Shown here: one piece after another, positions 13,113 to 29,130 of the stretch
Position numbering within the stretch: position 1 is the first letter of the stretch
How the letters are laid out: every line of letters starts with the position of its first letter
The notes under the pieces: model-generated
The model's database searches: none
What the model was told of the DNA's origin: nothing
The model's input: the letters and a program-made list of their open reading frames with translations, nothing else
Origin: Rhizobium sp. Q54
GTDB taxonomy: Bacteria > Pseudomonadota > Alphaproteobacteria > Rhizobiales > Xanthobacteraceae
Length of the DNA: 64,000 nucleotides
NCBI GenBank assembly: GCA_945861265.1
Contig: CAMAUC010000006.1
Coordinates: forward strand, 1 to 64,000
Direction of reading: 5' to 3'
Position numbers and translations under genes: made by a program

Positions 13113-13140
13113 CACTCCGGCCGCGTCACTCCGGCCGCGT
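13113..13140. repeat. 14-bp tandem duplication across the crotonase stop codon
   Basis: The unit CACTCCGGCCGCGT occurs at 13113-13126 and again at 13127-13140. It covers the TGA of the crotonase gene, producing a second TGA just after it. Probably a small local duplication without function. Confidence 0.8.
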
Positions 13141-13926
13141 TACCTTGCCGGCGCGGCCCTCGAGAAACGCCGTGAGCCGGCTTTTTGCCTCGGCGTCGGC
13201 CTGGGCGATCGACGAAATCAACGCCTCGACCGCGTAGCCGCTGCCGGGATCGATTTCGGCGATGCGCGGCAGCACATGGGTGATGGCGAAATTGGTCAGC
13301 GCGGTATTGCCGGCAATGCGCTCGGCCAGCGCCAGACCCTTGGCGAAGCCGTCTCCCGGCTCGTTGAGATAGGTCGACAACCCCATGGCCTGGCCGTCCT
13401 CGGCGGAATAGGTACGGCCGGTCAGCATCATATCCATCATGCGGGAAACGCCGATCAGGCGCGGCAGGCGCACCGAACCGCCGCCGCCGACATAGATGCC
13501 GCGGCTGCCTTCGGGCAGGCCGTAATAAGTCGAGCGCTCGGCGACCCGAACATGGGTGGCCGCCGCCAGTTCGAGCCCGCCGCCGACCACCGCGCCATGC
13601 AGCACGCAAACCACCGGCACCTTGCCGAACTGGATCTTGTCGAACACGCGATGCCACATACTGGAATGTGAAATGCCCTGCCGGATGTCGCGCTCCTGCA
13701 ATTCGCTGAGGTCGAGGCCGGCGGAAAAATGGTCGCCCTCGCCATGGACCAGCGCCGCGGCGATGTCGTCGGGCAGCGAGGCGAAGAACGTCTCGATGCC
13801 GAGGACGGTGGTGTCGTCGAGCGCGTTGCGCTTGTGCGGCCGCGCCAGCGTCAGGATGGCGACCTTGCCGCGCCGTTCGGCGCGCAGCGAAGCGGGGAGG
13901 GTAATATTGAGCTGCTGCGCCGCCAT
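13126..13926 (-). CDS. Enoyl-CoA hydratase/isomerase (crotonase family)
   Basis: A 266-residue crotonase. The oxyanion-hole segment HFSAGLDLSEL precedes VVGGGLELAA, whose Glu119 matches Glu144 of rat crotonase, and YGLPEG, whose Glu139 matches Glu164; both acid-base glutamates needed for hydration are therefore present. It likely hydrates the double bond of an aryl-propenoyl-CoA. Followed by the SDR, thiolase and thioesterase this gives a beta-oxidation route; followed by retro-aldol cleavage it would give an aryl aldehyde. The sequence does not look like the classical Pseudomonas feruloyl-CoA hydratase-lyase, so I favour a hydratase. It starts six bases after the DUF3237 gene, so both are one transcript. 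Confidence 0.88.
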   Translation of the reverse strand: MAAQQLNITLPASLRAERRGKVAILTLARPHKRNALDDTTVLGIETFFASLPDDIAAALVHGEGDHFSAGLDLSELQERDIRQGISHSSMWHRVFDKIQFGKVPVVCVLHGAVVGGGLELAAATHVRVAERSTYYGLPEGSRGIYVGGGGSVRLPRLIGVSRMMDMMLTGRTYSAEDGQAMGLSTYLNEPGDGFAKGLALAERIAGNTALTNFAITHVLPRIAEIDPGSGYAVEALISSIAQADAEAKSRLTAFLEGRAGKVTRPE

Positions 13927-14472: not shown

Positions 14473-15333
14473 ATGGCGCGTATCACGTCTCTTTCCGAAG
14501 CCATCGCCGGCGCCGTGCATGACGGCGATACAGTCGCCTTGGAAGGCTTCACGCATCTCATTCCGCACGCCGCCTGCCACGAAATCATCCGGCAGGGCCG
14601 CAAAGACCTGACGCTGGTGCGCATGACGCCGGATCTGGTTTACGACCAGATGATCGGCATGGGCTGCGTTAAAAAGCTGGTTTTCTCCTGGGGTGGTAAT
14701 CCGGGCGTCGGCTCCCTGCATCGATTCCGCGATGCAATAGAGAACGGCTGGCCACATAAACTTGAAATCGAGGAGCATTCGCACGCCGCCATGGCCAATG
14801 CCTATGAGGCCGGCGCGTCCGGTCTGCCTTGCGCGATCTTCCGCGGCTATATCGGCGGCGACCTGCCCAAAGTGAACGCCAAGATCAAGCGCGTCACCTG
14901 CCCATTTACCGGCGAGGAGCTCGCCGCCATTCCGTCCCACCGGCCGGATGTCGCGGTGATCCATGCCCAGCGCGCCGACCGGGCGGGCAATGTAATGATC
15001 GAGGGCGTGCTCGGCGTGCAGAAGGAGGCGGTGCTCGCCTCCAAGCGTTCGGTGGTGACGGTCGAGGAAATCGTCGACGAATTGCCCGAACGCAGCCTGA
15101 ACGCGGTGGTGCTGCCGCACTGGACCGTCGGTCATGTCGTCGAAGTGCCCGGCGGCGCGTTCCCGTCCTATGCGCAGGGCTATTACCCTCGCAATAACAG
15201 CTTCTATAAAGCGTGGGACGACATCGCCAAGGACCGCGACAGCTTCCACGCCTGGATGAAAACAAACGTTCTCGACAAGGGTCCAGATGCCTTCGCGCAA
15301 TATGCGCGCAAGCACGAAGCGGCGGCGGAGTGA
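14473..15333 (+). CDS. pcaI: 3-oxoadipate CoA-transferase subunit A
   Basis: A 286-residue class I CoA-transferase alpha subunit of the larger type (about 280 residues, as in CatI/PcaI of several soil bacteria). Marks include DGDTVALEGFTHLIP near the N-terminus and SWGGNPGVGSLHRF. With subunit B it moves CoA from succinyl-CoA to 3-oxoadipate, the penultimate step of the protocatechuate branch. It heads the operon pcaI-pcaJ-pcaF-pcaH-pcaG and is preceded by a promoter at 14417-14445. The gene to subunit B gap is five bases. A glutaconate-type CoA-transferase is a possible alternative by sequence, but the pca neighbours make 3-oxoadipate the strong choice. Confidence 0.9.
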   Translation: MARITSLSEAIAGAVHDGDTVALEGFTHLIPHAACHEIIRQGRKDLTLVRMTPDLVYDQMIGMGCVKKLVFSWGGNPGVGSLHRFRDAIENGWPHKLEIEEHSHAAMANAYEAGASGLPCAIFRGYIGGDLPKVNAKIKRVTCPFTGEELAAIPSHRPDVAVIHAQRADRAGNVMIEGVLGVQKEAVLASKRSVVTVEEIVDELPERSLNAVVLPHWTVGHVVEVPGGAFPSYAQGYYPRNNSFYKAWDDIAKDRDSFHAWMKTNVLDKGPDAFAQYARKHEAAAE

Positions 15334-15338
15334 CGACA

Positions 15339-16109
15339 ATGGCCGATTACAAGCCGACCGAAATGATGACCATCGCCGCGGCCCGCCTGCTCAAGAACGA
15401 CGACATATGTTTCGTCGGCATCGGTCAACCCTCCGCAGCCTGCAATCTCGCGCGGCTGACGCACGCGCCCGATATCACATTGATCTACGAATCCGGCACG
15501 CTCGCCACCAAGCCGACGGTGCTGCCTCTGTCGATCGGCGACGGTGAATTGTGCGACACCGCGCTGACCACCGTGTCGGTGCCGGAAATGTTCCGCTACT
15601 GGCTGCAGGGCGGCCGCATCAAGGTCGGTTTTCTCGGCGGCGCGCAGATCGACAAGTTCGCCAATCTCAACACCACGGTGGTCGGCCCTTACGATAAGCC
15701 GAAAGTGCGCCTGCCCGGCGGCGGCGGCGCGCCGGAAATCGCCACGTCGTGCGGCGAGATCTTCATCATCATGGCGCAGGGCAAACGCTCGTTTGTCGAG
15801 AAGCTCGATTTCGTCACCTCGATCGGTCACGTCTCGGGCGGCGATTCCCGCGCTAAACTGGGCGTCAAGACCAAGGGCCCGACCAAGCTGATCACCGATC
15901 TCGCTGTTTTCGCGCCTGATCCGCAGACTAAAGAGATGACTGTCATCTCGATCCATCCCGGCGTGACACGCGAACAGGTCCAGGAAAACACTGGCTGGGC
16001 GGTCAAGTTCGCCGCCAAGGTAGACGTAACACCGGCGCCGACGGCCAAGGAACTCGACGTGCTGCGTGAATTGCACGCGCGCACCAACCGTGCCCACGCG
16101 GCAGCGTGA
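15339..16109 (+). CDS. pcaJ: 3-oxoadipate CoA-transferase subunit B
   Basis: A 256-residue beta subunit. The catalytic glutamate that forms the glutamyl-CoA intermediate is in YESG (Glu51). The start is the ATG at 15339, five bases after the pcaI stop; the longer open frame from 15213 only overlaps pcaI. LPGGGGAPEIATSCGE is the glycine-rich CoA-binding segment. It forms a heteromer with PcaI and acts just before the PcaF thiolase, whose gene follows after 18 bases. Confidence 0.92.
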   Translation: MADYKPTEMMTIAAARLLKNDDICFVGIGQPSAACNLARLTHAPDITLIYESGTLATKPTVLPLSIGDGELCDTALTTVSVPEMFRYWLQGGRIKVGFLGGAQIDKFANLNTTVVGPYDKPKVRLPGGGGAPEIATSCGEIFIIMAQGKRSFVEKLDFVTSIGHVSGGDSRAKLGVKTKGPTKLITDLAVFAPDPQTKEMTVISIHPGVTREQVQENTGWAVKFAAKVDVTPAPTAKELDVLRELHARTNRAHAAA

Positions 16110-16127: not shown

Positions 16128-17336
16128 ATGCGTGACGTATTTCTCTGCGACGCGGTTCGCACGCCGATCGGCCGCTTCGGCGGCGCGCTCGCCAAGGTGC
16201 GGACCGACGATCTCGCCGCCGTGCCGATCAAGGCATTGATGGCGCGTAATCCGAAGGTCGATTGGGACAAGCTCGAAGAAGTCTTTTACGGTTGCGCCAA
16301 CCAGGCCGGCGAGGACAATCGCAATGTCGCGCGCATGGCGTTGTTGCTGGCTGGCCTGCCGCAGAGCGTTCCCGGCGTCACCTTGAACCGGCTCTGCGCT
16401 TCGGGCCTTGAAGCGGTCGGCACTGCGGCGCGCGCCATCCGCGCCGGCGAAATGGAATTCGCCATTGCCGGCGGCGTCGAATCGATGACGCGGGCGCCCT
16501 TCGTGCAGGGCAAGGCGCAGGAAGCTTTTTCGCGCACGGCCGAGATCTTCGACACCACCATCGGCTGGCGTTTCGTCAATCCGCTGATGAAGAAGCAATA
16601 CGGCGTCGACTCGATGCCGGAGACCGGCGAGAACGTTGCCGCCGATTTCCAGATTTCGCGCGCCGACCAGGACGCCTTCGCGATCCGCTCGCAGCAGCGC
16701 GCCGGCAAGGCGATCGCCTCCGGCTATTTCGCCAAGGAACTCGTCGCGGTCGAAATACCCGGCCGCAAGGGCGAGACCGTCAAGGTCGAGGCCGACGAGC
16801 ACCCGCGTCCAGAGACGACGCTGGAGCAACTCGCCAAGCTCAAGACGCCGTTCCGCGAACCCGGCACCGTGACCGCGGGCAACGCCTCCGGCGTCAATGA
16901 CGGCGCGGCGGCGATTATCGTCGCCTCGGAAGCGGCGGTGAAGGAACATGGACTGACGCCACGCGCCCGCATTCTCGGCATGGCATCGGCCGGCGTGGCG
17001 CCGCGCATCATGGGCATCGGCCCGGTGCCGGCGACGCTCAAGCTTATGGCGCGTCTCGGCCACAAGATACGCGATTACGACGTGATCGAACTTAACGAAG
17101 CCTTCGCCTCACAGTCGCTCGCGGTGTTGCGGCAGTTGGGTCTGAGCGACGACGCCGAGCACGTCAACCCGCATGGCGGCGCCATTGCGCTCGGCCATCC
17201 GCTCGGCATGTCGGGCGCCCGTCTGGCGCTGACGGCGGTGCATGGTCTGGAAGAAAGAGGCGGCAGACTGGCGCTCGCCACTTTGTGCGTCGGTGTCGGA
17301 CAGGGTGTGTCGCTCGCACTCGAACGAGTTCAATAA
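16128..17336 (+). CDS. pcaF: 3-oxoadipyl-CoA thiolase
   Basis: A 402-residue thiolase that splits 3-oxoadipyl-CoA into succinyl-CoA and acetyl-CoA, the final step of the 3-oxoadipate pathway. The nucleophile is in NRLCASG (Cys90); the histidine lies in HGGAIALGHPLGMSG and the second cysteine in TLCVGVGQG. The segment GWRFVNPLM followed by YGVDSMPETGENVA is typical of PcaF/PaaJ rather than of biosynthetic acetoacetyl-CoA thiolases. AAGGA precedes the ATG. It lies between the CoA-transferase and protocatechuate dioxygenase genes in one operon. Confidence 0.95.
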   Translation: MRDVFLCDAVRTPIGRFGGALAKVRTDDLAAVPIKALMARNPKVDWDKLEEVFYGCANQAGEDNRNVARMALLLAGLPQSVPGVTLNRLCASGLEAVGTAARAIRAGEMEFAIAGGVESMTRAPFVQGKAQEAFSRTAEIFDTTIGWRFVNPLMKKQYGVDSMPETGENVAADFQISRADQDAFAIRSQQRAGKAIASGYFAKELVAVEIPGRKGETVKVEADEHPRPETTLEQLAKLKTPFREPGTVTAGNASGVNDGAAAIIVASEAAVKEHGLTPRARILGMASAGVAPRIMGIGPVPATLKLMARLGHKIRDYDVIELNEAFASQSLAVLRQLGLSDDAEHVNPHGGAIALGHPLGMSGARLALTAVHGLEERGGRLALATLCVGVGQGVSLALERVQ

Positions 17337-17350
17337 AAAGGATAAACGCA

Positions 17351-18058
17351 ATGTCGCTGATCTACCCAAAGGCAAGTCTCGATGCTTATCCCAAGCATCT
17401 CTCGCCCGGCTACAAGAGCACGATCAAGCGCTCGCCTTCGAAGCCGCTGATGATCGTGCCGCATACCTTGTCGGAGCTGACCGGCCCGGTTTACGGCCAC
17501 GATGCGATCCAGGAAAACGACAACGATCTGACCAAGCAGCACAAGGGCGAGCCGCTCGGCGAACGCATCGTCGTGCACGGCCACGTTCTCGACGAGGACA
17601 AGCGCCCGGTGCCGAATGCGCTGGTCGAGTTGTGGCAGGCCAATGCCTGCGGTCGCTATGTCCATAACGTCGATCAGCATCCGGCGCCGCTCGATCCGAA
17701 CTTCACCGGCGCCGGGCGCACCGTCACCGACGCCAAGGGCTATTACAAATTCATCACCGTGAAGCCGGGCGCCTATCCCTGGGGCAATCACCACAACGCC
17801 TGGCGTCCGAATCACATCCACTTCTCGGTGTTCGGCCACTCGTTCCTGTCGCGCCTGGTCACCCAGATGTATTTTCCCGGCGACTACCTGTTTCCGTACG
17901 ATCCGATCTTCAATTCGGTGCCGGACGAGAAGGCGCGGGCGCGCATGATCTCGACCTTCGATCTCGAGAACACCGTGCCGGATTGGGCCCTGGCCTTCCG
18001 CTTCGACATCGTGCTGCGCGGCCGCGAAGCGACACCGCTCGACAACGACGAACATTAG
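17351..18058 (+). CDS. pcaH: Protocatechuate 3,4-dioxygenase beta subunit
   Basis: A 235-residue non-haem Fe(III) intradiol dioxygenase subunit that opens the ring of protocatechuate to 3-carboxy-cis,cis-muconate. All four iron ligands are visible: Tyr103 in GRY, Tyr142 in GAYPWGN, and His155 and His157 in NHIHF. The start at 17351 has AAGGA upstream; the frame opened at 17285 only overlaps pcaF. The C-terminal segment LVTQMYFPGD is normal. It is followed after 21 bases by pcaG, the alpha subunit, and together they form the active heteromer. Confidence 0.97.
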   Translation: MSLIYPKASLDAYPKHLSPGYKSTIKRSPSKPLMIVPHTLSELTGPVYGHDAIQENDNDLTKQHKGEPLGERIVVHGHVLDEDKRPVPNALVELWQANACGRYVHNVDQHPAPLDPNFTGAGRTVTDAKGYYKFITVKPGAYPWGNHHNAWRPNHIHFSVFGHSFLSRLVTQMYFPGDYLFPYDPIFNSVPDEKARARMISTFDLENTVPDWALAFRFDIVLRGREATPLDNDEH

Positions 18059-18079: not shown

Positions 18080-18691
18080 ATGTCTGAAATCACGCCCTCA
18101 CAGACCGTCGGTCCGTTCTTCGCCTATGGCCTCACGCCCAAAGGCCGTTGCCAATGGGATCCGAATGGCAGCTACAGCTGGAAGAACACCGTCGAATCCA
18201 ATCTGGTGACGCCGGATGCTTCGGGCACCCGCATCCATATCGAAGGCACCGTACGCGACGGCGACGGCGCGCCGATCAACGACTGCATGATCGAGATCTG
18301 GCAGGCGGATGCGCAAGGCCGTTTCGCCAGCCCCGGCACCAACCGGGCGCTGCCCAACACCAAGTTCAAGGGCTTCGGCCGCTCAGCGACCGACAAGCAG
18401 GGCGTCTATGCCTTCGACACCATCAAGCCGGGTTCGGTCCCCGGCCCCGGCGGCAAGCCGCAGGCGCCGCACATCGTGGTCTGCATTTTCTCGCGTGGCA
18501 TGCTGCGCCAGATTTATACGCGGCTGTATTTCGATGACGAACCGGCCAACGTCAGCGATCCCATCCTGAACATGGTGCCGGCCGAACGCCGCGGCACTCT
18601 CATTGCCCACAAGCAGCCGGGCGCCGATCACCAGTACCGCTTCGATATCCGGGTACAGGGCGGCGACGAGACCGTGTTCTTCGATATCTAG
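18080..18691 (+). CDS. pcaG: Protocatechuate 3,4-dioxygenase alpha subunit
   Basis: A 203-residue alpha subunit sharing the intradiol dioxygenase fold with PcaH but lacking the full iron-ligand set, as is normal. TPSQTVGPFF at the N-terminus and the WQADAQGRF segment are family marks. It completes the substrate pocket of the PcaGH complex. It is the last gene of the pca operon, since a strong terminator begins 29 bases after its stop codon. Confidence 0.96.
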   Translation: MSEITPSQTVGPFFAYGLTPKGRCQWDPNGSYSWKNTVESNLVTPDASGTRIHIEGTVRDGDGAPINDCMIEIWQADAQGRFASPGTNRALPNTKFKGFGRSATDKQGVYAFDTIKPGSVPGPGGKPQAPHIVVCIFSRGMLRQIYTRLYFDDEPANVSDPILNMVPAERRGTLIAHKQPGADHQYRFDIRVQGGDETVFFDI

Positions 18692-18890: not shown

Positions 18891-18993
18891 CTTTATATAC
18901 CTGATTTTGTGGTTGACGAGTTTACCTCCGCTTGGTTCGCTATGCGGGCGCAAAGGCCTTCAGAGCCACCACAAAAAAGCGCGAGGAAATGTC

Positions 18994-20403
18994 ATGAACG
19001 AGGTCATCCTTCAGGAGATCAGCGAATTCTGCCGTCAGCGCGGCCTGGCCGAATCCACCTTCGGACGCCGCGCCGTCAACGACGGGAAGCTCGCCAGCCG
19101 CCTGCGCAATGGCGGCCGCATCACCACCGACACGCTGGAACGTATCCGCGCCTTCATGTCGCAAAGCGACGATGACGCCCCGGCGCGCCGCCGCGTGCTG
19201 TTCGACGCGCCACCCGCGCAAACGCTTCCCATCATTAAACCGCAGGCGCCGCCAATGGCCACGAACCAGACGGATGACGATCCGCAGCGCAATTTCCGCT
19301 TTTTCGACAACCGTCAGAAATATCTTCTATTCGTGAACACCTGCTCGGAAAAATGGGAAGTCGCGCAGCGCGTCAGTCTCGAACTCACCAATATTCACCC
19401 GCGTCCGCCAGCGGTGCGCGTATTCGACGCCGGCGTTGGCGACGGCAGCGTGCTGACGCGCGTGATGCGCTCGATGCACGACAAATTTCCGACCATGCCG
19501 CACTACATCGTTGGCAAGGAAATCAGCCTCGAGGACGTGCGTCTGACCTTGCACAAGATGGCCGACCGCTTCGTCGAGCATCCGTCGACCGTGCTGGTGC
19601 TGACCAATCTTGCCTATGCCGAAGCGCCTTGGCTCGCCGCCAAGTCGCTGTCGGCGGCGACCAGCATGGTTTGGAAAGAGCTGGCGATGGACGGCGGCAC
19701 CGCCCATACCTTCGAGGAGCAGATCACCGCGCTCGAGCCGTTCCTCGCCGAGAGCTGGAAGGCCAAGGTTTCGCCGAAAAGCGGCAATCCGGTCTATGAG
19801 CGCCCTGTCGTTCTGGTGATCTACCGCAACGATCACCGCTTCCTGCTCGATCAGGTCATCCCGAGGCCGGGCGGCACCAGCGCCGATTACGACCTGGTCA
19901 TCGCCTCGCAGCCATATCGCGCCCGTGCGTCGCTCGAGTTCAAGGCCAAGCGCGTGCTGGCGCCGCTGGCGCGCGCGCTCGGCCCCGGCGGCCGCATGAT
20001 CGCAATCCAGTCCTACGGTCATGACCCGGCGATGGAGATCATCCATAAAGTGTGGCCGGAGGACAATCCGTTCACGCACAGCCGCCACGATTTGCTCAAG
20101 GAAACCAAGCACGAATTGGGATCGGCGGCGCGCGATCTCAACTTCAACGCCTATTCCGACCAGCGTTCGCTGTTCCGCTATGACATGCACACGTTGCCGT
20201 CCGAAGTGTCCTCATCGATCGGGACGTCCACATTGCTGGCCGCGTGGAACGCCGCGGTTTACGTCGCGCAAGTCGAGGACGACCGGCTCTCCGACGTCAA
20301 CAGCGACCGGCGCTATATCGAAGCGACGCGCGACGCGCTGCAAAAACACGGCGGGCTATGGTTCTATGACGAATCCTTTGTGATCTCGCGCCGGCGCGAG
20401 TAA
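18994..20403 (+). CDS. Predicted HTH-domain plus SAM-dependent-methyltransferase-like protein
   Basis: A 469-residue protein of unknown function. Residues 1-56 (with LAESTFGRRAVNDGKLASRL and the following helix) look like a phage-repressor-type helix-turn-helix. After a linker, residues 100-469 contain a Rossmann methyltransferase core with motif I VFDAGVGDGSVL at 142-153, a motif II-like acidic strand near 175, and LVIASQPYR as a motif IV-like strand. The start at 18994 has AGGAAATGTC upstream; the open frame reaches back to 18703 but crosses the repeat cluster. The stop lies only four bases before a MetF-like gene, so it is in a one-carbon operon. It may modify a small molecule or act as a methyl-status sensor that binds the TGCCCAC repeats; both are inference. 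Confidence 0.8.
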   Translation: MNEVILQEISEFCRQRGLAESTFGRRAVNDGKLASRLRNGGRITTDTLERIRAFMSQSDDDAPARRRVLFDAPPAQTLPIIKPQAPPMATNQTDDDPQRNFRFFDNRQKYLLFVNTCSEKWEVAQRVSLELTNIHPRPPAVRVFDAGVGDGSVLTRVMRSMHDKFPTMPHYIVGKEISLEDVRLTLHKMADRFVEHPSTVLVLTNLAYAEAPWLAAKSLSAATSMVWKELAMDGGTAHTFEEQITALEPFLAESWKAKVSPKSGNPVYERPVVLVIYRNDHRFLLDQVIPRPGGTSADYDLVIASQPYRARASLEFKAKRVLAPLARALGPGGRMIAIQSYGHDPAMEIIHKVWPEDNPFTHSRHDLLKETKHELGSAARDLNFNAYSDQRSLFRYDMHTLPSEVSSSIGTSTLLAAWNAAVYVAQVEDDRLSDVNSDRRYIEATRDALQKHGGLWFYDESFVISRRRE

Positions 20404-20407
20404 GCGC

Positions 20408-21292
20408 ATGACGCCTGGTTTCGCCGCGTCATTCTCGATCGAGGCCACGCGCCCAAGCGAAGCTGATATCGCGGCGATGGCCGGGGTATTGCCGCCGGGC
20501 ACCGCGGTCTATCTGTCCGCGGTGCCCAGCGTGGCCCCGGCCGAGTTGGTAACGACCGCGGCCCGGCTGCGCCGGGCCGGCCTTGATCCGGTCGCGCATA
20601 TCGCGGCGCGGCGAATGACCAGCACCGGCCACTTGATCGGTCTGCTGAAAGGCCTGCGCGGCGAGGCCGATATGCGACAGTTGCTGCTGATTGGCGGCGA
20701 CGTTGACCAGGCCGGGCCCTATGCCGATGCGCTCGCCATCCTCCAGAAGGGCGGCCTGCGCGAGATGGGCTTCGAGACGATCGGCATCGCCGCCTATCCG
20801 GAAGGCCATGCCAAAATTCCGCCCGGCCGGCTGGAGGCGGCGCTTGACGAAAAAATCGCCAGCGCCACGGCGCAGGGCCTGCGCGTCCATATCGTCAGCC
20901 AGTTTTCATTTTCGCCGGAGCGGGTCCTGACCTGGCTGCGGCAGTTGCGCAGCTCCGGCATCGTTGTACCGGTCAAGGTCGGCATGGCCGGGCCGACCAG
21001 CGTGCCGGCTTTGCTGCGCTACGCCAAACGTTGCGGTGTCGCCGCTTCCCTGCGCGGGCTGGTCTCCGGCGTCGGCGCCGGCCTCGTCGGCCAGATCACG
21101 ACCGGGTCGGTCGGACCTGGCCGCATGATCGATGCTCTGGCGACGGCCGAAGCGCGGGAGCGGAATATCGGCGATATCGCGCCGCATTATTTTTCGTTCG
21201 GCGGGGTCGTTGAAACCGCATGCTACGCATGCGAAGCGGCCAGCGCGACGCAAAGCCCGGGCCGTGCTATGGCACGTCCAAACAGCGCCTGA
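20408..21292 (+). CDS. Methylenetetrahydrofolate reductase-like protein (MetF family)
   Basis: A 294-residue TIM-barrel flavoprotein of the MetF family. Recognisable points are SIEATRPSE at the N-terminus (the glutamate corresponds to the catalytic one), HIAARRMTS, LLIGGDV, AAYPEGHAKIP, which matches the MetF YPEGHP signature, and the glutamine in VSQFSFSPE. It would interconvert methylene- and methyl-tetrahydrofolate with FAD. It follows the HTH-methyltransferase gene by four bases and precedes the MetE-like array by 88 bases. The sequence is a divergent branch rather than the housekeeping MetF. In demethylating bacteria such reductases recycle methyl-THF, so a catabolic direction is plausible here. 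Confidence 0.85.
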   Translation: MTPGFAASFSIEATRPSEADIAAMAGVLPPGTAVYLSAVPSVAPAELVTTAARLRRAGLDPVAHIAARRMTSTGHLIGLLKGLRGEADMRQLLLIGGDVDQAGPYADALAILQKGGLREMGFETIGIAAYPEGHAKIPPGRLEAALDEKIASATAQGLRVHIVSQFSFSPERVLTWLRQLRSSGIVVPVKVGMAGPTSVPALLRYAKRCGVAASLRGLVSGVGAGLVGQITTGSVGPGRMIDALATAEARERNIGDIAPHYFSFGGVVETACYACEAASATQSPGRAMARPNSA

Positions 21293-21380: not shown

Positions 21381-22493
21381 ATGTCCCAGAGAACCACCCC
21401 GCCCTTCCGCGCCGACCAGGTCGGCAGCATCCTGCGCACCAAAGCCATTCATGACGCGCGCGCCAAGCACGAGAAGGGCGAGATCACCGACGCTCAACTC
21501 AAGGCGGTTGAGGACGCCGAGATCATCAAGGTGATCAAGAAGCAGGAAGAGGTTGGCCTGCACGCCATCACCGACGGCGAATACCGCCGCTCATTCTGGC
21601 ACTATGATTTCTACGGCATGCTGGACGGCGTCTCGGTCGAAAAGTCCGATCACGGCATCCAGTTCCAGGGCATGCAGACCCAGATGAAGGTGCTGAAGGT
21701 CACCGGCAAGATCGACTTCGCGCCCAACCATCCGATGCTGGAGCATTTCACGTTCCTGAAGAAGCACGCCACCAAGACGCCGAAGATGTGCATTCCTTCG
21801 CCGACGGTCATGCATTTCCGTCTTGAGCCGGGTTCGGTCGCGGCGTCCGCCTATCCGAACCGCGACGCGATCTTCGACGATCTGGCGATTGCCTATCAAA
21901 AGGCGATCAAGGCGTTCTACGCCGCCGGCTGCCGCTATCTGCAGTTCGACGACACCGCCTGGGCCTATCTGTGCTCCGAAGTTGAGCTGAAGAAAGCGCG
22001 CGACCGCGGCGTCGACGTCGATCATTTGCAGGCCACCTATACCAAGTGCATCAACAAGGCGCTTGAGGCGAAGCCCGCCGACATGGTCATCACCACGCAT
22101 GTCTGCCGCGGCAACTTCCGCTCCACCTTCATCTCGTCGGGCGGCTACGAGCCGGTGGCCGAGAGCCTCTTGGCCAAGTGCAACTACGACGGCTACTTCC
22201 TCGAATACGACACCGACCGGGCCGGCGGTTTCGAGCCGCTGCGTTTCCTGCCGAAGGGCAACAAGATCGTCGTGCTCGGCCTCATCAGTTCAAAGGTCGG
22301 CGCGCTCGAACCGGTCGCCGACATCAAGAAGCGCATCAAGGAAGCCGAGAAGTTCGTCGCGCTTGAGCAGCTTGCTTTGTCGCCGCAATGCGGTTTTGCC
22401 TCGACCGAGGAAGGCAATGTGCTGGCCGAGGACGAGCAGTGGGCCAAGCTCAAGGAGATCGTTGCGATCTCGAAGGAAGTGTGGGGAAAGTAA
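21381..22493 (+). CDS. MetE C-terminal-domain-like methyl/alkyltransferase, paralogue 1
   Basis: A 370-residue protein matching only the C-terminal catalytic half of cobalamin-independent methionine synthase (COG0620, core MetE). The zinc site is complete: His240 and Cys242 in THVC, Glu275 in FLEYD and Cys337 in SPQCGF. The N-terminal MetE domain is absent, as in core-MetE and in epoxyalkane:CoM transferases, so the methyl donor need not be methyl-THF triglutamate. GGAGGA precedes the ATG. It is the first of four consecutive paralogues but is separated from the others by 142 bases of hairpin repeats. Transfer of a methyl or alkyl group to a thiol is the family chemistry; the actual substrate is unknown. 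Confidence 0.85.
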   Translation: MSQRTTPPFRADQVGSILRTKAIHDARAKHEKGEITDAQLKAVEDAEIIKVIKKQEEVGLHAITDGEYRRSFWHYDFYGMLDGVSVEKSDHGIQFQGMQTQMKVLKVTGKIDFAPNHPMLEHFTFLKKHATKTPKMCIPSPTVMHFRLEPGSVAASAYPNRDAIFDDLAIAYQKAIKAFYAAGCRYLQFDDTAWAYLCSEVELKKARDRGVDVDHLQATYTKCINKALEAKPADMVITTHVCRGNFRSTFISSGGYEPVAESLLAKCNYDGYFLEYDTDRAGGFEPLRFLPKGNKIVVLGLISSKVGALEPVADIKKRIKEAEKFVALEQLALSPQCGFASTEEGNVLAEDEQWAKLKEIVAISKEVWGK

Positions 22494-22500
22494 ATTCCTC

Positions 22501-22611
22501 TACCCTCTCCCCGCATTTGCGGGGAGAGGGTAGCGAGCGGCGGTTGCCGCTCGCCGACCGCCATCGCTGAAAGCTCAGGCGGCCGACCTCTCCCCGTGAA
22601 CGGCGAGAGGT
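22501..22611. repeat. Three successive palindromic repeat hairpins between MetE-like paralogues 1 and 2
   Basis: First hairpin: 14-base perfect arms at 22501-22514 and 22519-22532. Second: GCGAGCGGC and GCCGCTCGC at 22533-22554. Third: ACCTCTC and GAGAGGT at 22586-22611, with a CCGT/ACGG inner stem. The first matches the CTCTCCCCGC type of intergenic repeat common in Bradyrhizobium-like genomes. The block may end or stabilise the upstream message. Confidence 0.85.
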
Positions 22612-22635
22612 GAAGAAAGCAAGGGAGCCAACTCA

Positions 22636-23739
22636 ATGACTCAACGCACGTCGCCGCCCTTCCGCGCCGACCATGTCGGCAGTCTGCTGCGCCCCGCCGT
22701 CCTCAAGGATGCGCGCGCAAAATTCGCCGCCGGCACGATCGATGCCGCGGGCTTGAAAAAAATCGAAGACGAGGAAATTAAAAAGGTCGTCAAGAAGCAG
22801 GAGGAGATCGGCCTGCAACTCGCCACCGACGGCGAATTCCGCCGTTCCTGGTGGCATTTCGATTTCTTCCGTGGCCTGCAAGGCGTCGACCTGGTCGAGG
22901 CGCCGCCGATCAAATTCCACGGCGTCGTCACCAAGAGCGAAGCGATCAAGATCAACCGCGAAATTGATTTCGCCGGCCATCCGCATCTCGAACACTTCAA
23001 ATTCCTGAAAGCGAATTGCAGCGTCGTGCCGAAGATGACGATTCCTGCGCCGTCGACTTTCCACTTCCGGCAGGGCCGGGCAATGGTGAGCAAAGAGGCT
23101 TACCCGGATCTCGACGTGTTTTTCGAAGATGTCGGCAAGGCCTGGCAGAAAGCGATCCGCGCATTCTACGACGCCGGTTGCCGTTATCTGCAGCTCGACG
23201 ACACCGCCTGGGCGATGATGTGCGATCCGAAGGAGCGCGAGGGCTCGAAAGCGCGCGGCGACAATCCCGATGCGCTGCCGCAAATCTATGCGCGCGTGAC
23301 CAATGCCGCGCTCAAGGACAAACCGGCCGACATGGCCATTACCATGCATTCCTGCCGCGGCAATTTCCGCTCGACCTGGATCGCACAGGGCGGCTACGAA
23401 TTCGTCGCCGAACAGTTGCTCGGCAACACCAATCTCGACGGCTACTTCCTTGAATATGACTCAGACCGCGCCGGCGGGTTCGAGCCGTTGCGCTATTTCC
23501 CGAAGGGCGACAAACAATTGGTTCTCGGCCTGGTGACGTCCAAGAGCGGCACGCTCGAATCAAAGGACGACATCAAGCGTCGTATCGATCAGGCGACAAA
23601 ATATGTAGCGCTCGAACAACTTTGTCTTTCGCCGCAATGCGGCTTCTCCTCGACCGAGGAAGGCAACGTGCTGGCCGAGGACGAGCAGTGGGCCAAGTTG
23701 CGCATGATTGTCGAACTCTCAAAGGAAATCTGGAAGTAA
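22636..23739 (+). CDS. MetE C-terminal-domain-like methyl/alkyltransferase, paralogue 2
   Basis: A 367-residue core-MetE homologue. The zinc ligands are all present: THE-type His and Cys in MHSCRGNF, the glutamate in FLEYDSDRAGG and the last cysteine in SPQCGFSS. It opens with PPFRADHVGSLLRPA, as do paralogues 3 and 4 with small changes. Its stop overlaps the start of paralogue 3 by one base (TAATG), which indicates translational coupling. It begins a tight six-gene run: three MetE-like genes, MaoC, acyl-CoA dehydrogenase, CoA-transferase. Methyl or alkyl transfer to a thiol or to a folate is the likely chemistry; substrate unknown. Confidence 0.85.
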   Translation: MTQRTSPPFRADHVGSLLRPAVLKDARAKFAAGTIDAAGLKKIEDEEIKKVVKKQEEIGLQLATDGEFRRSWWHFDFFRGLQGVDLVEAPPIKFHGVVTKSEAIKINREIDFAGHPHLEHFKFLKANCSVVPKMTIPAPSTFHFRQGRAMVSKEAYPDLDVFFEDVGKAWQKAIRAFYDAGCRYLQLDDTAWAMMCDPKEREGSKARGDNPDALPQIYARVTNAALKDKPADMAITMHSCRGNFRSTWIAQGGYEFVAEQLLGNTNLDGYFLEYDSDRAGGFEPLRYFPKGDKQLVLGLVTSKSGTLESKDDIKRRIDQATKYVALEQLCLSPQCGFSSTEEGNVLAEDEQWAKLRMIVELSKEIWK

Positions 23740-24845
23740 TGACACTCCGTACCAAGCCGCCGTTCCGTGCCGATCATGTCGGCAGTCTCCTGCGCACGGC
23801 GCCGCTGAAAGAAGCCCGCGCCCAGCGCGAACGGGGTGAGATAACGCCGGAGGCGCTTGAGGAAATCGAAGACCGCGAAATCATCGGTATCATCAAGAAG
23901 CAGGAAGACCTCGGTCTGAAGTCCATCACCGACGGCGAATTCCGCCGTGCCTTCTGGAACTACGACTTTCTTGGCGCGCTCGAGGGCGCCGAAGCCTATC
24001 TCGGCGAACGCAAGATCAAGTTCGAAGGCGTCAATCCGCGGCCGATGATGATGCGGGTGACCGGCAAGCTCGGCAGTTTCAGTGGGCATCCGATGCTGGA
24101 ACACTTCAAGTTCCTGAAAGAGCACACCCGCGCGACGCCGAAGATGACGATTCCCTCGCCGTCCAGCATGCATTTCCGCTACGGCCGTGACGCGGTGCCG
24201 GTGAGCATCTATCCGGATATGAGCGATTTCTACCGCGATCTCGGTGCGACTTACCGCCAGGCCGTGCGCGCCTTCGCCGATGTCGGTTGCCGCTATCTAC
24301 AACTCGACGAGGTCAACTTCACCTATCTCTGCGATCCGAAGCTGCGCGAGCAGGTCGCCGCGCGCGGCGACGATCCGGAAAAGTTGCCGCTGGTTTATGC
24401 CGATATGATCAACGCGGCGATTTCCGACATCCCGTCCGACATGGCCATCACCATGCATTTGTGCCGGGGCAATTTCCAATCGACTTTCGTGGCCTCCGGC
24501 GGCTACGAGCCGGTGGCGGAAATTCTGTTCAACAAAATCAATGTCCACGGCTACTTCATGGAATATGATTCCGAACGCGCCGGCGGCTTCGAGCCGCTGC
24601 GCTTCGTGCCCAAGGGCAAGTCCGTGGTGCTCGGCCTGGTGACGTCGAAGTCCGGCAAGCTGGAATCGAAGGATGAATTGAAGCGCCGCATCGACGAGGC
24701 CGCCAAGTTCATTCCGCTCGAGCAGCTTTGCCTGTCGCCGCAATGCGGCTTTGCCTCGACCGAGGAAGGCAACATTCTTGCCGAGGATGAGCAGTGGGCC
24801 AAGTTGCGCATGATCGTGGAAGTGGCCGAAGAAGTGTGGGGTTAA
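23739..24845 (+). CDS. MetE C-terminal-domain-like methyl/alkyltransferase, paralogue 3
   Basis: A 368-residue core-MetE homologue starting at the ATG that overlaps the previous stop; the longer open frame from 23622 lies inside paralogue 2. The zinc ligands are MHLCRGNF, FMEYDSERAGG and SPQCGFAS. Compared with paralogue 1 it has a distinct segment around residues 80-110 and 140-165, where MetE proteins line the substrate pocket, so it may act on a different donor or acceptor. It stops four bases before paralogue 4. Four such genes in a row argue for a multi-substrate transfer system or for oligomers of different subunits. Confidence 0.85.
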   Translation: MTLRTKPPFRADHVGSLLRTAPLKEARAQRERGEITPEALEEIEDREIIGIIKKQEDLGLKSITDGEFRRAFWNYDFLGALEGAEAYLGERKIKFEGVNPRPMMMRVTGKLGSFSGHPMLEHFKFLKEHTRATPKMTIPSPSSMHFRYGRDAVPVSIYPDMSDFYRDLGATYRQAVRAFADVGCRYLQLDEVNFTYLCDPKLREQVAARGDDPEKLPLVYADMINAAISDIPSDMAITMHLCRGNFQSTFVASGGYEPVAEILFNKINVHGYFMEYDSERAGGFEPLRFVPKGKSVVLGLVTSKSGKLESKDELKRRIDEAAKFIPLEQLCLSPQCGFASTEEGNILAEDEQWAKLRMIVEVAEEVWG

Positions 24846-24849
24846 ACTA

Positions 24850-25950
24850 ATGTCTCAAAACACCAAGCCGCCGTTCCGCGCCGATCACGTCGGCAGTCTG
24901 TTGCGGCCCGCCGCGCTGAAGGACGCGCGCGCAAAGTTCGCCAAGGGTGAAATTCCCGCCGCCGCGCTTAAGGAAGTCGAGGACCGCGAGATCGAGCGTG
25001 TCATCAAGAAGCAGGAAGAGGTCGGGCTGAAATCGGTCACCGACGGCGAATTCCGCCGCTCCTGGTGGCATCTCGATTTTCTCTGGGGCCTCGACGGCAT
25101 CGAGAAATACATCATGGAGCAAGGTGTGGCCTTCGCCGGCGTCACCACGCGCAATGAAGGTCACAAGATCACCGGCAAGATCGGCTTTTCCGGCCATCCG
25201 ATGATCGAGCATTTCAAGTTCGTCGCCGGCCACACCACGCGCACGCCTAAGATCACCATTCCCGCGCCGTCGGCGGCTTACGGCCGTCCGGCCAAGCCGC
25301 CGATCTCCGGCTATAGCGACAACGCGGCGATGTTCGCCGATCTCGGCCAGGCCTATAAAAAAGCCGTGCGTGCTTTCGCCGATGCCGGCTGCCGCTATCT
25401 CCAACTCGACGAAGTGTTCATCGCCATGCTGTGCGATCCGAAGTATCGGCAGCAGATGACGGCGCGCGGCGACGACCCGGAAAAGCTCGGGCCGCTCTAT
25501 GGCGATCTCATCAACACGGCGATGTCGGATATTCCCGCCGACATGCGCATCACCATGCATCTGTGCCGCGGCAATTATAAATCGACCTTCCAGGGTTCGG
25601 GCGGCTATGAGGCGGAACAGGAGATCCTGTTCAACCGCATCAAGGTGCACGGCTATTTCATGGAATACGACACCGAGCGCGCCGGCGGTTTCGAGCCGCT
25701 GAAGCTGGTGCCGAAAGACCGGCAGGTGGTGCTGGGCCTCGTTACCACCAAGACCGGCCAGCTCGAATCCAAAGACACGCTCAAACGCCGCATCGACGAG
25801 GCGACGAAATACATCTCGCTCGATCAGCTTTGCCTGTCGCCGCAATGCGGCTTCGCCTCGACCGAGGAGGGCAATACCCTCACCGAGGAGCAGCAATGGG
25901 CCAAGCTGCGGCTGATCGTCGAACTGGCGGACGAGGTTTGGGGGCGCTAG
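24850..25950 (+). CDS. MetE C-terminal-domain-like methyl/alkyltransferase, paralogue 4
   Basis: A 366-residue core-MetE homologue with intact zinc ligands in MHLCRGNY, FMEYDTERAGG and SPQCGFAS. It differs from the others in the segment AAYGRPAKPPISGYSD near residue 140, where the others have a histidine-bearing MHFR or FHFR sequence. That change near the presumed substrate pocket suggests another specificity. The gene ends nine bases before the MaoC gene, so it shares a transcript with the CoA-ester genes. Confidence 0.85.
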   Translation: MSQNTKPPFRADHVGSLLRPAALKDARAKFAKGEIPAAALKEVEDREIERVIKKQEEVGLKSVTDGEFRRSWWHLDFLWGLDGIEKYIMEQGVAFAGVTTRNEGHKITGKIGFSGHPMIEHFKFVAGHTTRTPKITIPAPSAAYGRPAKPPISGYSDNAAMFADLGQAYKKAVRAFADAGCRYLQLDEVFIAMLCDPKYRQQMTARGDDPEKLGPLYGDLINTAMSDIPADMRITMHLCRGNYKSTFQGSGGYEAEQEILFNRIKVHGYFMEYDTERAGGFEPLKLVPKDRQVVLGLVTTKTGQLESKDTLKRRIDEATKYISLDQLCLSPQCGFASTEEGNTLTEEQQWAKLRLIVELADEVWGR

Positions 25951-25959
25951 CCTAGACGG

Positions 25960-26826
25960 ATGCCCGTCAATCTCGAAAAACTGCTGACGCACGAAGTCGC
26001 TCCGGTCGAGCACAGCTATGGCTCGAAAGACGTCATTCTTTACGCGCTGGGCCTCGGCTTCGGTCAGAACCCGACTGACCAGAACGAACTCCAGTTCGTC
26101 TATGAGAAAAATCTGAAGGCGCTGCCAACCTGGCCGTTGATGCAGGGCTACGCGCCGTATTGGTTGCACGACGAAGGCTTCGGGCTGACCTTTTCGCACG
26201 CGGTGCATGGCGAACAGGCCATCGTGCTGCACGCGCCGGTCGCCGTTCAAGGGACCGTGGTCGGCCGGGAGCGCGTCGTCGATGTCGTCGACAAGGGCGA
26301 AGGCCGCGGCGCGCTGATTTACTCCGAGCGCACGATTACCGACAAGGTGAGCGGCCGGCTGCTGGCGACTTTGTCGCAGACCACCTTTTGCCGCGCCGAT
26401 GGCGGCTTTGGCGGACCGAGCGAGCGACAACGGCCGGCGCCGCCGCATACTCCGCCGGAGCGTGCACCGGACCTGATCTGCGATCTGCCGACGCGCCCGG
26501 AAATGGCGCTGATCTACCGCCTGTCCGGCGACATCAATCCGCTGCACGCCGACCCGGAATTCGCCAAAGCCGCCGGCTATCCGCGCCCGATCCTGCACGG
26601 GCTTGCGACAATGGGCGTCGCCGGCCATGCGCTGCTCAAGTCGGTCTGCGGTTATGACCCGGCCCGTTTGACGGCCATGTCCGTGCGGTTTTCGGCGCCG
26701 GTATTCCCGGGCGAGACCATCCGCACGGAAATCTGGCGCGATGCCGGTGTTGTAAGCTTCCGTGCCCGTGTTAAGGAACGCGACGTCGTGGCGCTCAATC
26801 ATGGCCGCGCCGAAATTGCCGGGTAA
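25960..26826 (+). CDS. MaoC-family (R)-specific enoyl-CoA hydratase, double hot-dog
   Basis: A 288-residue protein resembling the hydratase-2 domain of peroxisomal multifunctional enzyme type 2. The C-terminal hot-dog has the hydratase-2 motif YRLSGDINPLHADPEFA (Asp191 and His196 catalytic) followed by PILHGL. The N-terminal half is a catalytically silent hot-dog that makes room for bulky acyl chains. It hydrates 2-enoyl-CoA to (R)-3-hydroxyacyl-CoA. It sits between the MetE-like genes and an acyl-CoA dehydrogenase gene (five-base gap), so it should act on a product of that dehydrogenase. Substrate unknown. Confidence 0.9.
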   Translation: MPVNLEKLLTHEVAPVEHSYGSKDVILYALGLGFGQNPTDQNELQFVYEKNLKALPTWPLMQGYAPYWLHDEGFGLTFSHAVHGEQAIVLHAPVAVQGTVVGRERVVDVVDKGEGRGALIYSERTITDKVSGRLLATLSQTTFCRADGGFGGPSERQRPAPPHTPPERAPDLICDLPTRPEMALIYRLSGDINPLHADPEFAKAAGYPRPILHGLATMGVAGHALLKSVCGYDPARLTAMSVRFSAPVFPGETIRTEIWRDAGVVSFRARVKERDVVALNHGRAEIAG

Positions 26827-26831
26827 AGACG

Positions 26832-28001
26832 ATGAGCAAAAGCACCGACCGCGACGACTATGCCGACATCCGCGAATCCGTGCGCGCTTTATGCGCGCGG
26901 TTTCCCAGCGAATACTGGCGCGCGCTCGACCGCGAGCGCGCCTATCCGACCGCCTTTGTCGCGGCGCTGACCGAGGCCGGCTATCTCGCCGCCTTGATCC
27001 CCGAAGAATACGGCGGCAGCGGGCTCACTGTCGGCGCCGCCGCGGCGATCATGGAAGAGGTGCATGCGACCGGATGCAACGGCGCCGCCTGCCACGCCCA
27101 GATGTACACGATGGGCACAATTCTGCGGCACGGTTCGCCGGCGCAGAAGCAGGCTTACCTGCCGGGCATCGCCAGCGGTGAATTGCGGCTGCAGGCCTTC
27201 GGCGTCACCGAGCCGACTTCGGGCACCGATACATTATCGCTACGCACGACGGCGCGGCGCGACGGCGACGCTTACGTTATCAACGGCCAGAAGATCTGGA
27301 CGTCGCGGGCCGAACACTCCGACCTGATGCTGCTGCTGGCGCGCACCACGCCGAAGGAGCAGGCGGTCAAGCGCACCGACGGACTATCGGTGTTTCTGGT
27401 CGACATGCGCGAGGCGCTGGCGAGCAAGAGCCTCACCATCAAGCCGATCCGCACCATGATGAACCACGCCACCACCGAAGTGTTCTTCGACGACTTGCGC
27501 GTGCCGGCGGCGAACCTGGTCGGCGAGGAAGGCAAGGGCTTCCGCTACATTCTCGCCGGTATGAACACCGAACGCATTCTCATCGCCGCTGAATGCATCG
27601 GCGACGCCAAATGGTTCATCGAGAAGGCCACAGCTTACGCCAAGGGCCGCGAATTGTTCGGCCGCCCGATCGGGCAGAATCAGGGCGTACAGTTTCCGAT
27701 CGCGCGCGCCTATGCGCAGATGCGCGCCGCTGAATTGATGGTGCACGAGGCTTGCCGCAAATATGAAGCCGGCGGCGACATTGGCGCCGAGGCTAATATG
27801 GCGAAGCTTCTCGCCGCTGACGCCTCCTGGGCCGCCGCCGACATGTGCGTGCAGACGCATGGCGGCTTCGGCTTCGCCGAGGAATACGATGTCGAACGCA
27901 AATTCCGCGAGACGCGGCTCTACCAGGTGGCGCCGATCTCGACCAATCTGATCCTGTCTTATCTCGCCGAGCACGTGCTCGGCCTGCCGCGGTCGTATTG
28001 A
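26832..28001 (+). CDS. Acyl-CoA dehydrogenase
   Basis: A 389-residue FAD flavoprotein that oxidises an acyl-CoA to the 2-enoyl-CoA. FAD and substrate segments FGVTEPTSGTD, KIWTSRAEHSD and QTHGGFGFAEEYDVER are present. At the position of the usual catalytic glutamate of medium- and short-chain enzymes (IYEGT) this protein has LYQVA, but NTERILIA supplies Glu247 at the place used as base by isovaleryl- and long-chain acyl-CoA dehydrogenases, so it should be active. It is coupled to MaoC and CoA-transferase genes with one- to five-base gaps. A branched or unusual short acyl-CoA is a plausible substrate. Confidence 0.92.
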   Translation: MSKSTDRDDYADIRESVRALCARFPSEYWRALDRERAYPTAFVAALTEAGYLAALIPEEYGGSGLTVGAAAAIMEEVHATGCNGAACHAQMYTMGTILRHGSPAQKQAYLPGIASGELRLQAFGVTEPTSGTDTLSLRTTARRDGDAYVINGQKIWTSRAEHSDLMLLLARTTPKEQAVKRTDGLSVFLVDMREALASKSLTIKPIRTMMNHATTEVFFDDLRVPAANLVGEEGKGFRYILAGMNTERILIAAECIGDAKWFIEKATAYAKGRELFGRPIGQNQGVQFPIARAYAQMRAAELMVHEACRKYEAGGDIGAEANMAKLLAADASWAAADMCVQTHGGFGFAEEYDVERKFRETRLYQVAPISTNLILSYLAEHVLGLPRSY

Positions 28002-28002
28002 A

Positions 28003-29130
28003 ATGTCTTTGCCGCTCGAAGGCCTCCTTGTCGTCTCGGTCGAGCAGGCCGTCGCCGCGCCGCAATGCACTTGCCGGCTTGCCGACGCCGGCGCGCGAGT
28101 CATCAAGGTCGAGCGACCGGAAGGCGATTTCGCCCGGCATTACGATTACATCGTACATGGCGAGAGCGCGCATCTGGTCTGGCTTAATCGCGGCAAGGAG
28201 TCCGTTGTCCTCGATCTCACCAAAGGCGACGACAAGGCTCTGCTGGAGGCTATGCTCGCCAAGGCCGACGTGTTCGTGCAGAACCTCAAGCCCGGTGCGC
28301 TCGGCAAACTCGGCTTTTCGTTCGAGCGGTTGCGCAAGGACTATCCGAAGCTGATCTGCGCCTCGATCTCCGGCTACGGCGAGAGCGGACCGTTCGCGCA
28401 ACGCAAGGCCTACGATCTCTTGATCCAGGCCGAGTCGGGTCTGTCGTCCGTCACTGGCGGGCCGGAAGCGCCGGCGCGCGTCGGTGTCTCGGTCGTCGAT
28501 ATCGCCGCGGGTTTGAGTGCCTACGAGGCTATCCTCGAGGCGATCATTCGCTGTTCGCGCACCGGCGAAGGCGCGACCATTTCGATTTCCATGTTCGACG
28601 CCATGGCGGAATGGATGACCATCCCGCTGCTCAATCAGGAATGGGGCAACCCGTTCAAGCGCGTCGGCCTCGCGCACCCGACCATCGCGCCGTACGGCGT
28701 GTTCAAGACGCGCGACGGCGCCGACATCCTGATCTCGATCCAGAACGACCGCGAGTGGCGTGTGCTTGCCGACAAAGTACTCGGCAATGCCGCACTTGGC
28801 GCCGATGAGCGTTTCGCCACCAATCCGCAACGTCAGGCCAACCGCGCGCAGACTGACGGCGAAGTGGCAAAGGTTTTTGCCGAACAAGATGTCGAGCCGC
28901 TGATGCAGAAGCTCGCCAGCGCCGACATTGCCTTCGCCCGCGTCAACGATTCTGCTTTGCTGGCAACGCACCCGCACTTGAGGCGGATCACCGTCGATAC
29001 CCCAAGCGGGCCGGCGAGCACGCCGGCGCCGTCCGCGCAATTCGTCGGCGAACCGCGCTATTACGGCGCAGTTCCAGCGCTCGGCGCGCAGACAGCCGCG
29101 ATCAAGGCCGAGTTCGCGCCGAAGCGCTAG
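28003..29130 (+). CDS. Class III CoA-transferase (CaiB/BaiF family)
   Basis: A 375-residue family III CoA-transferase. The catalytic aspartate that forms the aspartyl-CoA intermediate is in KAYDLLIQAESG (Asp138), and the N-terminal Rossmann-like part shows ADAGARVIKVERPEGD. It moves CoA between a thioester and a free acid, probably activating the substrate of the neighbouring acyl-CoA dehydrogenase and MaoC hydratase. It starts one base after the dehydrogenase stop and is the last gene of the six-gene run. Its stop codon overlaps the stop of the convergent efflux gene within the tetranucleotide CTAG. Confidence 0.92.
   Translation: MSLPLEGLLVVSVEQAVAAPQCTCRLADAGARVIKVERPEGDFARHYDYIVHGESAHLVWLNRGKESVVLDLTKGDDKALLEAMLAKADVFVQNLKPGALGKLGFSFERLRKDYPKLICASISGYGESGPFAQRKAYDLLIQAESGLSSVTGGPEAPARVGVSVVDIAAGLSAYEAILEAIIRCSRTGEGATISISMFDAMAEWMTIPLLNQEWGNPFKRVGLAHPTIAPYGVFKTRDGADILISIQNDREWRVLADKVLGNAALGADERFATNPQRQANRAQTDGEVAKVFAEQDVEPLMQKLASADIAFARVNDSALLATHPHLRRITVDTPSGPASTPAPSAQFVGEPRYYGAVPALGAQTAAIKAEFAPKR

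Follow-up and report, generated by a model that had tools for sequence, protein, structure and literature searches.

The window analyzed here is a stretch of 64,000 nucleotides (nt) from Rhizobium sp. Q54 (contig CAMAUC010000006.1), in which four genes for MetE-like zinc methyltransferases of the PRK06520 family, here called E1 to E4, lie one after another on the plus strand. E1 (21381-22493) encodes 370 amino acids (aa), E2 (22636-23739) 367 aa, E3 (23739-24845) 368 aa and E4 (24850-25950) 366 aa, and the ATG of E3 overlaps the stop codon of E2 by 1 nt, as TAATG. All four belong to PRK06520 by its model NF005085, with 571, 570.7, 534.4 and 495 bits, respectively, against a curated cut-off of 313; E2 also has a homologue in 1ypx (432 bits), and E2-E4 share 54-59% identity with E1. 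These family scores, together with the conservation of the array in relatives, exclude a chance origin. An earlier note, made from the sequence alone, had described four successive genes of 366-370 residues with an intact zinc site and without the N-terminal domain of MetE, and this description holds throughout. The genes are consecutive open reading frames (ORFs) of one strand and one family, alignment recovers the HxC, Glu and Cys zinc ligands in each copy, and the N-terminal folate domain is missing from ORFs of this length, full MetE models aligning to E1-E3 only from about model position 418 onward.

Aligned to MetE of Escherichia coli, E1-E4 share with this canonical enzyme the catalytic domain, the zinc ligands H641, C643, E665 and C726, and the residues I431-G432-S433 (as V-G-S), E484 and D599, which we take to bind homocysteine. 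They differ from it in lacking the N-terminal domain and in not keeping W561, R515 and C516, although the sequences align only loosely near 515 and 561; we assume that W561 stacks on the folate pterin and that R515 and C516 are folate residues as well. Furthermore, the position of H694, presumably the proton donor of MetE, is occupied by Lys in 13/13 of the PRK06520 rows aligned, those of Listeria and Klebsiella included.

The position of W561 coincides with a loop that the earlier note had singled out as differing among the copies. The difference is real, while the description of three copies as MHFR-type has to be corrected: E1 has VMHFR, E2 TFHFR and E3 SMHFR, the common part being HFR, and E4 carries the AYGRPAKPP variant (AAYGRPAKPP). 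Among 187 sequences, divided by clade into 78 E1 (single genes not part of an array among them), 34 E2, 43 E3 and 32 E4, the His-Phe pair of the loop is fixed (100%) in the E1, E2 and E3 clades and replaced by Tyr-Gly (97% and 100%) in the E4 clade. In the same comparison, 15 columns differ between clades while being fixed to 85% or more inside each of them, including 143/144 in the loop, 189/190 after D599, 237 beside H641 and 272 beside E665. With the loop counted, 5-6 of these 15 columns lie near the active site, compared with 1.3-2.5 expected (P=0.006-0.022), which is modest evidence of clustering.

In regard to the age of the array, a FastTree phylogeny of 222 rows recovers the E2, E3 and E4 clades with supports of 96, 100 and 100, and the E1 clade weakly (55). 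An IQ-TREE phylogeny of 52 rows groups E3 with E4 (98/89) and places E1, E2 and the copies of Klebsiella, Listeria, Priestia and Selenomonas apart from them (100/99); E1-E4 also sit apart from E. coli MetE, the exact place of which, like that of other MetE subfamilies, is unsure because of long branches. All four genes are under purifying selection (dN/dS of 0.06-0.27 against two relatives). A recent tandem amplification was rejected, because the orthologous clades reappear from genome to genome, and homologues from Firmicutes and Klebsiella group with E1 and E2 apart from E3/E4. Judged from these sequences, the four copies separated long ago, and some of their fixed differences adjoin the active site.

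The array follows genes of protocatechuate (pca) degradation on the same strand: a CoA-transferase subunit resembling PcaI (14473-15333; PF01144 85.4 bits, TIGR02429 46.2 bits, below its cut-off of 128.5), another resembling PcaJ (15336-16109, start chosen by us; PF01144 155.2 bits on 15213-16109, TIGR02428 32.2 bits, below its cut-off of 243.55), pcaF for 3-oxoadipyl-CoA thiolase (16128-17336; TIGR02430 707.5 bits), pcaH for protocatechuate 3,4-dioxygenase beta (17348-18058, start chosen by us; TIGR02422 372.6 bits on 17285-18058) and pcaG for the alpha subunit (18080-18691; TIGR02423 251.2 bits), the last three over their cut-offs. They are followed, still on the plus strand, by an uncharacterised 470-aa protein (18991-20403, start chosen by us) and a MetF-like protein (20408-21292), which is weak against canonical methylenetetrahydrofolate reductase (MTHFR) models. 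Its best PDB match is 7xg9 (E 5.2e-51), which we take to be the enzyme of Sphingobium SYK-6, and our label of SYK-6-type metF rests on that assumption. Past E4 by 9 nt comes a gene for a MaoC-type hydratase (25960-26826; PF01575 96.1 bits), then those for an acyl-CoA dehydrogenase (26832-28001; PF00441, PF02771, PF02770) and a family III CoA-transferase (28003-29130; PF02515 327.4 bits), all on the plus strand. Since the run from E2 to the CoA-transferase gene has a single 1-nt overlap and otherwise gaps of 1-9 nt, E2-E4 probably share a transcript with these three genes. On the minus strand lie genes for a crotonase/enoyl-CoA hydratase family protein (13126-13926; NF006013 366 bits, over cut-off) and two acyl-CoA synthetases (9280-11157 and 11154-13025; NF009232 791.2 and 781.2 bits, cut-off 777), the latter being neighbours of the array in some relatives.

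Compared with the rest of the PRK06520/NF005085 subfamily, such as 1ypx, presumably from Listeria, and the Klebsiella protein annotated as a "cobalamin-independent methionine synthase II family protein", E1-E4 agree in full-length family match, zinc and homocysteine-site residues and the Lys at H694. They differ in forming a tandem array of four old paralogues within an aromatic catabolic island and in the distinct putative donor loop of E4.

The genome (3.75 Mb in 133 contigs, 95.7% complete) holds the MetE catalytic domain in 10 genes (13 matches, joined by frame), and 6 genes exceed the PRK06520 cut-off; the copy on contig C1 adjoins an acyl-CoA ligase gene. A PRK09121-type core MetE (C19:36529-37500, L024; 545 bits, over cut-off) is found between FAD_binding_3 and Sulf_transp proteins. 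The genome also has metH, a 1248-codon frame with MetH activation and B12-binding modules, close to a canonical metF (316.5 bits) on the same contig. Methionine supply therefore does not depend on the array, and a housekeeping role for E1-E4 was rejected. The argument of the earlier note that four copies go beyond one housekeeping function thus stands, with metH and the canonical metF elsewhere in the genome and E1-E4 apart from E. coli MetE. A corrinoid methyl donor was rejected as well, as the B12-binding_2 model PF02607 matches MetH alone, no other corrinoid model having been searched. Characterised core methionine synthases use methylcobalamin in vitro or, in the case of MesD, require MesX (PMC7857596, PMC7005905). 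E1-E4 resemble MesA-D and the Dehalococcoides core-MetE described there in being lone catalytic domains with no folate domain, but differ in their genomic background, which has metH and MetH as its sole B12-binding_2 match, so that a corrinoid-fed mode would be without an evident partner; the Dehalococcoides model also has Asp at the zinc where E1-E4 have Glu (PMC7005905).

A LigM-type protein was not found in the genome, at its given completeness. The sole match to PF01571 (GCV_T), at C49:24345-24659 (L016), reaches 31.3 bits, over the family cut-off and far below LigM level, and because of this the glycine cleavage T-protein also seems to be missing from the 95.7% complete genome, as reported for SYK-6. 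E1-E4 themselves do not belong to GCV_T, the family of the tetrahydrofolate (THF)-dependent O-demethylases LigM and DesA, and match PF01717 and NF005085.

Relatives of the array tie it further to aromatic catabolism. Among the best 80 of 268 loci fetched with the MetE array as query, which hold 1 to 5 PRK06520 genes each, pcaH was found in 36, SYK-6-type metF in 31, LigM in 13 and vanA-vanB in 1; the LigM of L040, a locus of Pseudolabrys sp. Root1462 that also has E1, scores 701 bits to 5x1i, a vanillate/3-O-methylgallate O-demethylase. In a sample of 80 genomes of the same family, not chosen for LigM, 9 genomes contain a total of 13 LigM homologues at 54% identity or above (three rows of 35-37% were left out), and a PRK06520 gene lies within 1.5 kb of 10 of the 13. 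With 52 PRK06520 genes spread over roughly 44 Mb in these nine genomes, well under 0.1 of the 13 would be expected by chance. The link to catabolism that the earlier note had proposed is thereby borne out, both by the pca genes ahead of the array and by the pca and LigM linkage in relatives. In SYK-6, the enzyme S6MTHFR oxidises methyl-THF in tandem with LigM (PMC12585457). Our locus differs from this module in that LigM is missing from the genome and that E1-E4 are of the MetE family and not of GCV_T. It shares with it the type of MetF, if 7xg9 is identified correctly, upstream of the array, and LigM homologues adjoin PRK06520 genes in relatives.

Some of the related arrays contain a second, distant MetE-like subfamily of about 25-28% identity (L056, L079, L080:7549-8601, L241:5056-6084, L243 and L253; the gene of L080 reaches 266.6 bits to PRK09121, below the cut-off of 392), so that a single island brings together two lineages of zinc methyltransferases. 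In 7 relatives, a gene for a solute-binding protein, assigned by clustering, stands beside or between MetE-like genes (e.g., L049:12332-13615, a Peripla_BP_6 protein, and L054:4766-6037), a possible clue to an imported substrate.

We also examined how SYK-6-type metF and arrays, defined as two listed PRK06520 starts less than 4 kb apart, are distributed over the 80 family genomes, with phylogeny controlled to genus level at most. The metF gene is present in 23 genomes and arrays in 20, and arrays occur in 12/23 genomes with metF compared with 8/57 others (P=0.00073; by genus, P=3.5e-5). Within the 71 LigM-free genomes, arrays were found in 9/16 with metF and 7/55 without it (P=0.0008). LigM, the known partner of this MetF type and hence a positive control, is present in 7/23 metF genomes and 2/57 others (P=0.0018).

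The 470-aa protein between pcaG and metF has a glycine-rich motif resembling an S-adenosylmethionine (SAM) site. It matches nothing in Pfam at E up to 1, a phmmer search against the PDB returned nothing, and its AlphaFold model is poor (mean pLDDT 51.2). Of 20 family neighbourhoods of SYK-6-type metF, 19 have a homologue adjacent to that gene or no more than 2 kb away (the contig of the twentieth ends there), and a homologue is present in all 31 metF-bearing loci among the selected 80, while in other genera of the family a homologue is found near a metK-like gene in 5/6 loci. Its candidacy as an aromatic gene is weakened by this adjacency to metF or metK, and it may sense or use SAM as part of the methionine cycle.

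The family of E1-E4, their place in the island and their divergence are near certain, and together they suggest demethylation of lignin-type compounds rather than everyday methionine synthesis. The reading that we favour, and hold tentatively, is that E1-E4 are an old and diversified set of zinc methyltransferases of an island for plant aromatics, probably methoxylated ones, converting aryl methyl ether and homocysteine to phenol and methionine, with donors that differ by copy. As to the donor class, methoxyaromatics are perhaps an even guess; both donor and acceptor are inferred. In such a reaction, the zinc would bind homocysteine and activate it as a thiolate, the remodelled donor loop would hold an aromatic methyl ether, and the thiolate would attack the ether at its methyl carbon. 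The Lys at the place of H694 could aid the departure of the phenolate, giving methionine and a demethylated phenol, the latter passing onward to protocatechuate. The copies would differ in the aromatic donor accepted, and methyl-THF arising at other points of this one-carbon network would be oxidised by the adjacent MetF. The retained residues favour homocysteine over THF as the acceptor, while the co-occurrence with metF favours THF over homocysteine.

Several observations weigh against this reading. If homocysteine takes the methyl group, sustaining a large catabolic flux would require it to be regenerated at a high cost, and a VanA-like Rieske oxygenase on another contig (166 bits) may already demethylate vanillate. 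With the loop excluded, copy-specific columns do not cluster significantly around the active site (P=0.063-0.16), nor are LigM and arrays associated at genome level in the 80 family genomes (P=0.15). At least one PRK06520 copy is present in 23/23 metF genomes, and in genomes with neither LigM nor array the family occurs in 7/7 with metF compared with 25/48 without (P=0.017), so metF is linked to the PRK06520 family generally and not to arrays alone. Besides the window genome, 22 genomes of the family carry metF. In the 20 of their neighbourhoods that were read, no PRK06520 gene was found near metF, nor was one found in any of 20 class-level metF neighbourhoods, one of which (L142) contains a homologue of LigM (47%) and a MetE-like match (22%). 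In G417 and G453, of the same genus as the window genome and outside those 20, metF and a PRK06520 gene are 3.5-3.8 kb apart. It follows that metF and array share genomes but rarely a locus, which weakens the idea of metF as an obligate neighbour of the array. The copy on contig C4 of the genome has genes for a diguanylate cyclase and a dGTPase as neighbours, with no aromatic context, and the same lack of aromatic context applies to the copies of Listeria, Priestia, Selenomonas and a Klebsiella plasmid; in other, apparently Bradyrhizobium-like genera of the family, a single PRK06520 gene lies behind an ABC importer operon of one type in 6/6 loci read. Since PRK06520 also occurs outside an aromatic context, the ancestral donor may be non-aromatic.

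It is also possible, although unlikely, that E1-E4 are methionine synthases acting on an imported non-aromatic donor, such as a betaine or an S-methyl compound, and that their aromatic neighbours are coincidental. Across the class, PRK06520 matches (E up to 1e-80) are present in 35/289 genomes, and of 20 class-level neighbourhoods fetched from other families, 7 have an ABC importer of one type and 2 have vanA-vanB beside the gene (L188, L193), the latter in favour of the aromatic reading. Besides the importer in 6/6 loci, the single copies have a gene that we recognise as metK-like within about 8 kb in 5/6 (the sixth stretch ends before the place), the gene on the Klebsiella plasmid stands ahead of an importer annotated urtABCDE (L206, 6998-13757), and the homocysteine-site residues are kept, all of which speaks for this explanation. 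It leaves the LigM linkage in 10 of 13 cases, the pca linkage and the expansion into arrays unexpected. The plasmid locus is also framed by transposase genes, IS5 and IS110 upstream and IS5 downstream. In its ancestral role, PRK06520 probably made methionine with an imported donor, a role that seems to have been recruited to aromatic catabolism in the arrays.

The main alternative in regard to the acceptor, which we consider rather unlikely, is that E1-E4 are THF-dependent aryl O-demethylases replacing LigM where it is absent: the MetE barrel would run in reverse, with zinc on the ether oxygen, THF taking the methyl group and MetF oxidising the product. Such enzymes would fit a genome without LigM and with metF directly upstream of the array, as well as the excess of arrays in LigM-free genomes with metF. 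On the other hand, the Trp561 and Arg515/Cys516 of the folate site are not kept while the homocysteine-site residues are, and metF lies near a PRK06520 gene in the Pseudolabrys-like lineage only.

The loss of Trp561 likewise speaks against a methyl sink, in which the methyl group of LigM-made methyl-THF would be transferred onto homocysteine. The LigM adjacency in relatives would suit this role, but metH is already capable of it, the genome has an array and no LigM, and a sink has no need of four diverged copies, so we regard it as improbable. Least probable of all is another thiol alkylation in the manner of epoxyalkane:coenzyme M transferase, for example the attachment of a thiol to an aromatic side chain ahead of the CoA steps, for which the shared zinc-thiolate fold and the tight packing of E2-E4 with CoA-pathway genes could be cited, but which has no specific support and does not explain the retained homocysteine amino-acid site.

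Demethylation of methoxyaromatics is a costly step of lignin use, for which three routes are known: oxygenases, corrinoid systems and LigM-type folate enzymes. In the open-licence PubMed Central literature, within the passages accessible, we found neither a link of a MetE-like protein to aromatic catabolism nor a methyl donor for PRK06520. Considered in full, the idea that a zinc-bound homocysteine thiolate demethylates aryl ethers without oxygen, corrinoid or folate, that lignin methoxyl groups would thus flow into methionine and SAM, and that the array supplies one enzyme per methoxyaromatic, is doubtful. Still, PRK06520 is a widespread family annotated as methionine synthase that repeatedly lies beside LigM and protocatechuate genes and has expanded into diverged arrays, which makes it a direct candidate for a fourth route. 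If true, aromatic demethylation would give the PRK06520 family a testable function, and would represent a new chemistry of aerobic aromatic O-demethylation.

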